A stretch of 64,000 nt of DNA from the NCBI GenBank assembly GCA_944326705.1, contig CALVEY010000005.1, positions 1 through 64,000 of the forward strand. Direction: 5' to 3'. Shown piece by piece: positions 12,447 to 14,854 of the stretch (positions are counted from its first letter, which is position 1; each line of letters starts with the position of its first letter). The position numbers and the translations under genes are program-made. The notes below the pieces were generated by a model, which saw nothing but the letters and a program-made list of their open reading frames with translations, made no database searches and was not told where the DNA came from. The stretch comes from an uncultured Mucispirillum sp. (GTDB lineage Bacteria; Chrysiogenota; Deferribacteres; Deferribacterales; Mucispirillaceae).

Positions 12447-12965
12447 TTATTCATATTTAACTAGTTTTGTATTAATGTCAATATTACGAGCTAATGGATG
12501 TTTTGGAGAACCATTTTTGTTTAAACCTAAACAATATAAATTTAAACCAAGTGATTTTAATTTTTCACATACTTCAATATCACGATTTAAAAGGTTACCA
12601 TCATTTCCCCATGCAACTACGATTATTTTAGATTTTTTTGTGATTTCATCAATCCAATAATCATTATCAGGTCCAACAGGATTATTATGTATGTATAAAT
12701 CTTTCGGTTGTGATGACCTTAATGCAAATAGGTTAATAACATATATGCCACTACAATTCTCTTTTTTTGCTAACATAACACACTTACGAATAGTTGGGTC
12801 ATCTTTTAGAGCATCTGCTTTACTTGGGTTGAGCATGATAAATGTCATCATTTCATTATTAATATCCCATGTCCGCTGTAAAAAATATCTATATGTTTTG
12901 CATGAAGAAATTTCTGCGTCGGAAGTAATATACTTCACTGTCCTAGCACCATCCATCGTTGCCAA
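12447..12965 (-). CDS. DUF1643 domain protein
   Basis: 172 aa, complete. The conserved DUF1643 signature is clear: FIMLNPSKADALKDDPTIR, then VINLFALRSSQPKDL, VAWGN and a C-terminal HPLAR. The function is not known; the family occurs scattered on phages, plasmids and genomic islands. It is the second gene of a two-gene unit facing its neighbours and overlaps the Cys-rich gene by up to 31 bases (22 if the second Met, at 12956, is the start). The patchy family and opposed orientation suggest acquisition by transfer, and expression is probably set by the poly-C promoter upstream. The domain is clear; the role is open. Confidence 0.85.
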   Translation of the reverse strand: MATMDGARTVKYITSDAEISSCKTYRYFLQRTWDINNEMMTFIMLNPSKADALKDDPTIRKCVMLAKKENCSGIYVINLFALRSSQPKDLYIHNNPVGPDNDYWIDEITKKSKIIVVAWGNDGNLLNRDIEVCEKLKSLGLNLYCLGLNKNGSPKHPLARNIDINTKLVKYE

Positions 12966-13141
12966 TTATTGCAATTATCTGTAGGATATTTTTCATTTCC
13001 ATTCCAAGACCTTTTATTATAGCATTTACCTTTATGATTATCCATATATTCCACATTATCAAACCAATTATCTGGTTCACGATGACCAGACCAATATTCA
13101 CATGTTGCACATTGTTCTCTTTGTTTGTTACATGATGCCAT
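12935..13141 (-). CDS. Small Cys- and Trp-rich protein, unknown function
   Basis: 68 aa with five cysteines (C4, C11, C14, then two near CYNKR and CNNW) and five Trp, a pattern suggesting a small metal-binding or zinc-ribbon-like fold. It has no signal peptide or membrane segment. The ATG has AAGGAG six bases upstream, and it is the first gene after the poly-C promoter. Its 3' end overlaps the start of the DUF1643 gene, implying coupled translation. I do not recognise a named family. The strong ribosome site and promoter argue that it is a real gene. Confidence 0.65.
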   Translation of the reverse strand: MASCNKQREQCATCEYWSGHREPDNWFDNVEYMDNHKGKCYNKRSWNGNEKYPTDNCNNWQRWMVLGQ

Positions 13142-13189
13142 AAAAACTCCTTCTTATTTAATTATTTAAATATTATCAGCTGATTTTAA

Positions 13190-13217
13190 AAAATATCATG
13201 GGGGGGGGATTTGTCAA
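13190..13217 (-). promoter_or_regulatory. Promoter with poly-C spacer, probably phase-variable
   Basis: On the minus strand TTGACA (13217-13212) and TATTTT (13195-13190) flank a 16-base spacer containing nine consecutive C (13208-13200). Loss or gain of one C by slippage would move the spacing to 15 or 17. The tract sits 59 bases before the Cys-rich gene start. A run of nine C is exceptional in DNA this AT-rich. Phase variation by spacer-length change is established for Neisseria and Haemophilus promoters; its use here is inference. Confidence 0.6.
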
Positions 13218-13236: not shown

Positions 13237-13266
13237 CTTTACAATTTTGTAAAATTTAATTATAAC
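13237..13266 (+). promoter_or_regulatory. Promoter of the NifA-like regulator overlapped by a palindromic operator
   Basis: CTTTACAA-TT-TTGTAAAA (13237-13254) is one base short of the full palindrome seen between glnN and gltB. Its left arm contains TTTACA (13238-13243), which with TATAAC (13261-13266) forms a sigma-70 promoter with a 17-base spacer. A protein on the palindrome would cover the -35, so repression of this gene, probably self-repression, is the simplest reading. Confidence 0.6.
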
Positions 13267-13294: not shown

Positions 13295-14854
13295 ATGGCA
13301 GGCAGAAAATCTAAACAAGAAGAACATTCATTAAGTGCAGAAATTACAGTATTACAAGAAATAAGCTACGCTATCGTTCATAAAAAAAATGTCAGCGAGC
13401 TTTTACACCAGATATTAGAAATATTAAGCTCACGGCTTAATATGATACGCGGCACATTCACTATTGTAAAACATAATAAATTATATATTGAAGCTACTCA
13501 TGATTTACATGAAGCTGAAAAAAAGCATATTTCATACAATATAGGTGAAGGAATAACTGGCCATGTAGCAGAATGCGGCAGACCTCATTTAATTGAAGAT
13601 ATCGTTCATGACCCTAGGTTTTTAAACAGACTTGGCGCAAGAGATAAAGATGAAAAAATTGCATTTATATGTGTGCCTATTATTAATATGGAAAGAGTTA
13701 TAGGCACATTAAGTGTTGATAGAGTCATGGATGAAAATGCTGACCTGCAAAAAGATTTAAAATTTTTAGAAATTGTGGGCAATATTGTAGGTGAAGCATT
13801 AATGGCTGTAGTGGCAGAACATGAAGAAAAAGAACAGCTTATACACGAAAATAAACAATTAAGAGATATGCTTGATGATAGTAACCCGCCTGCTTTAATT
13901 GGTAACTGCAAAAGTATGCGTGATATATATGCACTAATCAAACAGGTAGCAGCAAGTGATGCAACAGTGCTTCTTCGTGGAGCTTCTGGTACTGGTAAAG
14001 AAATGGTTGCAAGAGCAATAGTGTCACTTAGTGATAGAAAAGATAAACCTTTTATTACATTAAACTGTGCAGCAATCCCAGAAAACCTTGTAGAAAGTGA
14101 GCTGTTTGGTCATGAAAAAGGTGCATTTACTGGCGCTGTTGCAAGGCGTATAGGTCATGTAGAAAAAGCAAATACAGGCACATTATTTCTTGATGAGGTT
14201 GGAGATTTATCACTTGCTTCACAAGTAAAGTTATTAAGATTTATTCAGGAAAGAACATTTACAAGGCTTGGCAGCAGCCAGACTTTAAAATCAGATGTGC
14301 GGTTAATTGCTGCTACAAGTAGAAATCTTGAAGAAATGATTGCAAATGGTCAGTTTAGAGAAGACTTATATTACAGGCTTAATATTTTCCCTATCACTAT
14401 GCCTGATTTAAATTCCAGAAGAAGCGATATTATACTTTTAGCAGAACATTTTATTGAAAAACATAACTTAAGATATAAAAAAAATATAAAAAGGCTTTCC
14501 ACCCCTGCTATTAATATGCTTATGAGTTACCACTGGCCTGGCAATGTAAGAGAGCTTGAAAACTGTATAGAAAGAGCAGTTATTACAGCAACAGATGACT
14601 GTATACATGGATATAACCTGCCTGCATCTTTACAGACTGGTAAAACATCTAATTCTTCACTTTTACCTGATGGTGCAGCTTCATTTAATACTCTTGTAGA
14701 TTCTTATGAAAGAGAATTAATAGTAGAATCATTAAAAAGAAACCACGGAAATATGTCTGCAGCTGCTAGAGATTTAGATTTATCACCAAGAGTAATACAC
14801 TATAAAATAAGACGGCTTGGTATTACTCCAGAATGGTATCAAGATAAGGTATAA
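13295..14854 (+). CDS. NifA-like sigma-54-dependent activator (GAF-AAA+-Fis)
   Basis: 519 aa. N-terminal GAF sensor (about 28-170), a linker, then the AAA+ domain with Walker A GASGTGKE (K235), the sigma-54 contact loop GAFTGA (276-281) and Walker B LFLDEVGDL. A Fis-type helix-turn-helix is at about 478-515. This is the NifA order, but no nitrogen-fixation gene is in the window and no receiver domain is present, so it is not NtrC itself. Its place beside glnN/gltBD-dapL and the palindrome it shares with them suggest a role in nitrogen assimilation. The effector is not known. Class is certain, target inferred. Confidence 0.92.
   Translation: MAGRKSKQEEHSLSAEITVLQEISYAIVHKKNVSELLHQILEILSSRLNMIRGTFTIVKHNKLYIEATHDLHEAEKKHISYNIGEGITGHVAECGRPHLIEDIVHDPRFLNRLGARDKDEKIAFICVPIINMERVIGTLSVDRVMDENADLQKDLKFLEIVGNIVGEALMAVVAEHEEKEQLIHENKQLRDMLDDSNPPALIGNCKSMRDIYALIKQVAASDATVLLRGASGTGKEMVARAIVSLSDRKDKPFITLNCAAIPENLVESELFGHEKGAFTGAVARRIGHVEKANTGTLFLDEVGDLSLASQVKLLRFIQERTFTRLGSSQTLKSDVRLIAATSRNLEEMIANGQFREDLYYRLNIFPITMPDLNSRRSDIILLAEHFIEKHNLRYKKNIKRLSTPAINMLMSYHWPGNVRELENCIERAVITATDDCIHGYNLPASLQTGKTSNSSLLPDGAASFNTLVDSYERELIVESLKRNHGNMSAAARDLDLSPRVIHYKIRRLGITPEWYQDKV

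Follow-up and report, generated by a model that had tools for sequence, protein, structure and literature searches.

A run of nine cytosines lies in a promoter spacer in Mucispirillum, upstream of genes for a cysteine-rich protein and a DUF1643 protein, and we consider it likely that this tract is a slippage-prone contingency element of that promoter and part of a genus-wide phasome. The window, which is the whole 64-kb stretch of DNA that we analysed, comes from a draft genome of Mucispirillum sp. (G000; phylum Deferribacterota, genus label g1) of 2.39 Mb in 79 contigs, which is 97% complete. The original prediction had placed nine C between TTGACA and TATTTT, with a 16-bp spacer, and a direct read of the window sequence shows that this is exact: the minus strand at 13217-13190 is TTGACA-AAT-C9-ATGA-TATTTT, for a spacer of 3 + 9 + 4 = 16 bp (Table 1). 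It had also claimed that no other G or C homopolymer in the 64 kb is this long; indeed, this is the only G/C run of over 5 nucleotides. The genome holds a single copy of the full promoter sequence, and the locus with the tract is present in one genome only.

The best spacing between the -35 and -10 boxes of sigma-70 promoters is 17 bp, and, as had been pointed out, one added C would bring this promoter exactly to that optimum. We propose that slips which add or remove a C as the DNA is replicated would give a spacer of 15 bp (C8), 16 bp (C9), or 17 bp (C10), and that this would change the activity of the promoter reversibly. With 7 nt of the spacer outside the C run, the C9 form would have partial activity and a tract longer by one C would be optimal; the strongest state is probably C10. 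The likely mechanism is slipped-strand mispairing, and the gene pair may be expressed in just part of the population. Slippage within populations at this site, the length that is ON, the start of transcription, and the capture of the promoter (described below) are all what we infer from sequence.

Table 1. The tract, its promoter, and the genes downstream (positions in the window)
Feature	Position	Strand	Remarks
-35 box, TTGACA	13212..13217	-	Matches consensus at 6/6
C9 tract, proposed slippage site	13200..13208	-	G9 on the plus strand; direct read
-10 box, TATTTT	13190..13195	-	Matches consensus at 4/6; preceded by TGA (extended -10 type)
AAAATCAGCTGATAA block with palindrome ATCAGCTGAT, around the expected transcription start	13173..13187	-	Sequence comparison
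Ribosome-binding site AAGGAG of the Cys-rich gene	13147..13152	-	Direct read
Cys-rich protein gene (68 aa), first in proposed operon	12935..13141	-	No Pfam, NCBIfam, PHROG, or PADLOC family
DUF1643 protein gene (PF07799, E = 8e-46), second in proposed operon	12447..12965	-	Start lies inside the end of the Cys-rich frame

Long C and G tracts across Mucispirillum

We counted tracts in whole genomes with pattern searches. The window's genome contains 37 C/G runs of at least 8 (32 of nine, three of ten, and two of eight), plus one run of seven. By third-order extrapolation from the window, runs of at least nine are expected about 0.01 times per 64 kb and about 0.4 times per 2.39-Mb genome, while 35 were seen. 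Across nine genomes from genus g1 (the sum leaves out G004, which is 57% complete), there are 13 C7, 26 C8, 225 C9, and 53 tracts of C10 or more. In contrast, five outgroups from other genera of the order have 187 C7, 36 C8, 6 C9, and 7 of C10 or more, so that the balance of C9 and C7 is reversed. As in a phasome, long G/C tracts are in excess both over expectation and over relatives, and the window's tract exceeds the cut-off that PhasomeIt uses for phase variability (at least 7 G/C; PMC6321876). By our count, 11 of the tracts in the window's genome lie between -35 and -10 boxes, 23 lie in genes, and 4 lie elsewhere.

G011, which belongs to a second genus of the family, carries 60 C9 tracts as well as the promoter motif, whereas a third genus (g2) has 0-3, which suggests gain or loss within the family. 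One outgroup from the order (G024) has 99 C7 and 10 C9, which is more than the remaining outgroups.

Tracts inside genes

Among the 23 coding tracts of the window's genome, 13 are in frame, seven change the frame, and three are C-terminal (L037, L038 at 4308, and L045). Their products include MBOAT acyltransferases, TAT-signal molybdopterin oxidoreductases, a methyltransferase, a type I restriction specificity subunit, and proteins of glycosyltransferase family 9 and of the RgpF-like, FdtA-like, sulfatase-family, and radical SAM/SPASM types. (L047 is the oxidoreductase that was scanned; the other paralogues were named by their common N-terminus and their length.) In L038 (6891), L039 (2510), L040, L041, L049, L059, and L042, the frame changes exactly at the tract and a long frame is open past it. 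L040, L041, L049, and L059 are oxidoreductase paralogues of L044 and L047, which are in frame, and L042 is a TAT-signal protein with a G10 tract. As in a phasome of the Campylobacter type, there are tracts in surface or surface-modifying genes, some of them with frame breaks.

Six paralogous TAT-signal oxidoreductases of the molybdopterin type have G8-G10 in a common N-terminal linker; two are in frame and four are out of frame. These are candidates for phase-variable respiration. The type I restriction specificity subunit (L036:1917-3077; Methylase_S, E = 3e-45) has an in-frame G9 between its two domains, and this tract could possibly make the methylation pattern phase-variable.

A family of promoters with a standard geometry

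In the window's promoter, the tract lies between the -35 and -10 boxes and its length sets the spacer, which is the layout of opc-type promoters. We searched for similar promoters with the pattern TTGAC-N2-6-C7+-N4-14-TANNNT. There are about 10 matches in the window's genome. Of the 10 g1 genomes searched, 9 have the pattern, as does G011; a control with the pattern backwards had one match among the g1 genomes. (The 11 promoter tracts of the window's genome include two outside the pattern, namely C36:1644 and the G tract at C41:14942, and one C7, at C15:47158.) Together, G011, the window's genome, and eight of the nine other g1 genomes gave 74 distinct promoter places; the ninth, G004, has none. 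The genes behind these tracts encode mostly lipoproteins, whose translations show a lipobox, and outer-membrane proteins, and their ribosome sites have a short, regular spacing.

The commonest form of the promoter is TTGACATT-C9-ATGATATAAT, and where the window's promoter has TATTTT, most sister promoters carry ATGATATAAT. The flanks of the tract are mostly of lengths (2,4), (3,3), or (4,2), and the 5' and 3' lengths are negatively correlated (r = -0.41). In 56 of the 74 promoters, the two flanks add up to a non-C spacer of 6 nt (in 10,000 shuffles of the same lengths, the mean was 35 and the maximum was 47); if identical strings are collapsed, this holds for 30 of 48 (versus 15.5). With such flanks, a C9 tract makes a 15-bp spacer and a C11 tract a 17-bp spacer; the window's promoter, whose flanks sum to 7, is one longer. 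Because the non-C spacer of most sister promoters is 6 nt, the common C9 gives a poor spacer of 15 bp, and we propose that these promoters would be mostly OFF at C9 and ON at C10-C11 (16-17 bp).

The same geometry could be read in another way: the tract might be a fixed regulatory element whose length is functional and which does not slip. C9 and its flanks might be a binding site, or the short spacer of 15 or 16 bp might suit a dedicated, MerR-like regulator or respond to supercoiling. Tract lengths do cluster tightly at 9, which also counts against slippage, the total spacer clusters at 15 bp (49 of 74 promoters), and the conserved ATGATATAAT block adjoins the tract. However, the C9/G9 spike also appears within coding sequences, on which promoter factors do not act. 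Furthermore, promoter tracts range from 7 to 11 in length (with a mode of 9), and in one orthologous pair, 7 Cs in one genome correspond to 9 Cs in another, with matching flanks. We therefore view a fixed element as unlikely. The mode of C9 has a precedent under slippage as well: in Campylobacter jejuni, mutation biases keep tracts mainly at G9 and G10 (PMC8355987).

Length differences between sister species and mismatch repair

Three tracts differ cleanly in length between the window's genome and its sister species G003, with flanks that abut the tract. One is the orthologous promoter just mentioned, which has C7 in the window's genome (C15:47158) and C9 in G003 (C16:8997). The others are in L035 and L046, which have G9 in frame in the window's genome and G10 out of frame in G003. 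When tracts are paired by exact flanks of 12 bases, 3 of 7 differ in length, as compared to 2 of 28 A/T runs of 7-8 with 14-base flanks (P = 0.04, from few cases). Most paired tracts are equal in length, usually 9. Two other differences were rejected as examples of slippage: the L042/L170 pair (C10 in the window's genome and C9 in G003) differs by a C/A substitution that leaves the total length unchanged, and the G001/G005 pair (C9 and C10) also differs by substitution.

Both MutS1 and a full-length MutL were found, over the cut-off, in the window's genome and in most of the genus, so slippage is not explained by the loss of mismatch repair, which we rejected as the cause. The presence of these genes weighs somewhat against slippage. 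C. jejuni, in contrast, lacks functional mismatch repair (PMC8355987), but such a loss is not a general requirement for a phasome.

Comparison to known systems

In Neisseria meningitidis, the length of a poly-C tract in the opc promoter (11-14 C) tunes transcription (Sarkari et al. 1994, as summarized in PMC6389960). As described there, opc resembles most of the Mucispirillum class in having a poly-C tract in the promoter of a surface protein. The Mucispirillum tracts are shorter (7-11, mode 9) and belong to a promoter family with a standard geometry, whereas opc is a single gene; and unlike opc, the window's gene pair shows no sign of a surface location. In the fim2, fim3, and fimX promoters of Bordetella, the length of a C-stretch alters the transcript level (PMC1891110), as the poly-C tracts of Mucispirillum promoters would do. 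In Bordetella, this length is discussed as the distance from an activator-binding region to the -10 box, whereas the window's tract separates a perfect -35 box from the -10 box.

The closest likeness in scale is to the phasome of Campylobacter, in which each genome has tens of G/C tracts, mainly of 9-10, most of them in genes (many of these for surface structures) and a minority intergenic (PMC6321876, PMC8355987). Mucispirillum, which belongs to a different phylum, differs in that about 30% of the tracts here sit in promoter spacers, where they share a conserved motif, and in that the targets include TAT molybdopterin oxidoreductases. The titles and abstracts of the open-licence literature on Mucispirillum mention no slippage, phase-variation, or antigenic-variation system, which is not proof of absence; a Mucispirillum genome paper (PMC5285517) does not use phase-variation terms, and we found no report of such a system from the phylum Deferribacterota in the open-licence literature.

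If our reading is correct, then Mucispirillum, which lives in gut mucus, uses slippage in a way similar to Campylobacter, to vary its surface lipoproteins, its glycan enzymes, a restriction-specificity subunit, and its respiratory oxidoreductases. The mixture could then differ from one colony or mouse to the next, which bears on the use of Mucispirillum in defined mouse communities. Also, the fixed geometry of the promoters offers many natural replicates for relating spacer length to promoter activity.

The Cys-rich/DUF1643 pair and the origin of its promoter

Because the start of the DUF1643 gene overlaps the end of the Cys-rich gene, the two are probably co-transcribed from one promoter. This pair is an atypical target, as most sister promoters serve surface lipoproteins. 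The Cys-rich gene was not found in any of 15 relatives searched, and DUF1643 is carried by 2 of 10 g1 genomes. Outside of the window's genome, the closest relative of the DUF1643 protein (70%) is from Candidatus Mucispirillum faecigallinarum (L010/G009), where it is encoded at the equivalent position but with neither the tract nor the Cys-rich gene; the absence of the tract there is a point against slippage. The Cys-rich protein has a weak match on a Sphaerotilus plasmid, where the listed neighbours do not include DUF1643, and another on an unannotated faecal phage contig. We found no convincing Cys-rich partner adjoining DUF1643 in other genomes. We rejected a role in defence or in phage for the pair: PADLOC had no results, and the family that the DUF1643 protein matches, phrog_3230, is of unknown function.

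Downstream of the tract, AAAATCAGCTGATAA lies at the same offset in the window's promoter and in three C9 promoters of a lipoprotein family (C35:101 in the window's genome, C87 in G009, and C70 in G008). This 15-mer occurs once in the window. The shared block suggests a common origin of the module or a common operator, and capture or a shared operator would be the simplest reading; judging by these sequences, the window's module was probably captured from a lipoprotein promoter. A phage origin for the motif was rejected, as viral contigs gave no match. More tentatively, Mucispirillum might have a standardised and copyable cassette, TTGACA-TT-C9-ATGATATAAT and its compensated variants, which moves to new genes and makes them randomly switchable, with a slip of 1-2 bases taking them out of a default OFF state. 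The window would then be a recent capture by an accessory operon, and, with the tract-bearing oxidoreductases, the genus would randomise both its surface lipoproteins and its anaerobic respiration. This broader proposal is plausible, but we would not yet favor it.

A copied module might also be a relic that slips without effect, if the pair uses an upstream site resembling TTTACA/TATTAT or is not needed at all. The narrow distribution of the two genes and the leader shared with the lipoprotein family are compatible with this, and there is a promoter-like match without a tract (TTTACA-17-TATTAT, 13253-13225) upstream of the Cys-rich gene, which also tells against slippage as the switch. However, a perfect -35 box, an extended -10 box, and a good ribosome site have been kept, and C10 would give exactly 17 bp. 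Moreover, the upstream TTTACA falls in an inverted repeat beside a divergent regulator gene, which may explain the promoter-like match. A relic thus seems improbable. Finally, a chance run or an assembly artefact is very improbable, and is ruled out for the tract class as a whole: the genomes are mostly drafts that give one length per site, but G006, which is a single contig, has 33 C9 and 10 longer runs, and the 35 runs in the window's genome far exceed the expected number.

Phase variation by slippage is the best reading for the class of tracts, and probably for the window's site as well, because the site belongs to that genus-wide class. The original prediction of a phase-variable switch thus gains strong support at the level of the class, from the excess of C9, the recurrent architecture, the compensation between flanks, the length differences between species, and the frame breaks; the window's site is itself a candidate.

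The inverted repeat (TTTACAA-AA-TTGTAAA, 13238-13253, minus strand) lies between the tract promoter and the divergent gene for a sigma-54-type regulator (13295-14854). It is operator-like and is conserved in G009/L010.
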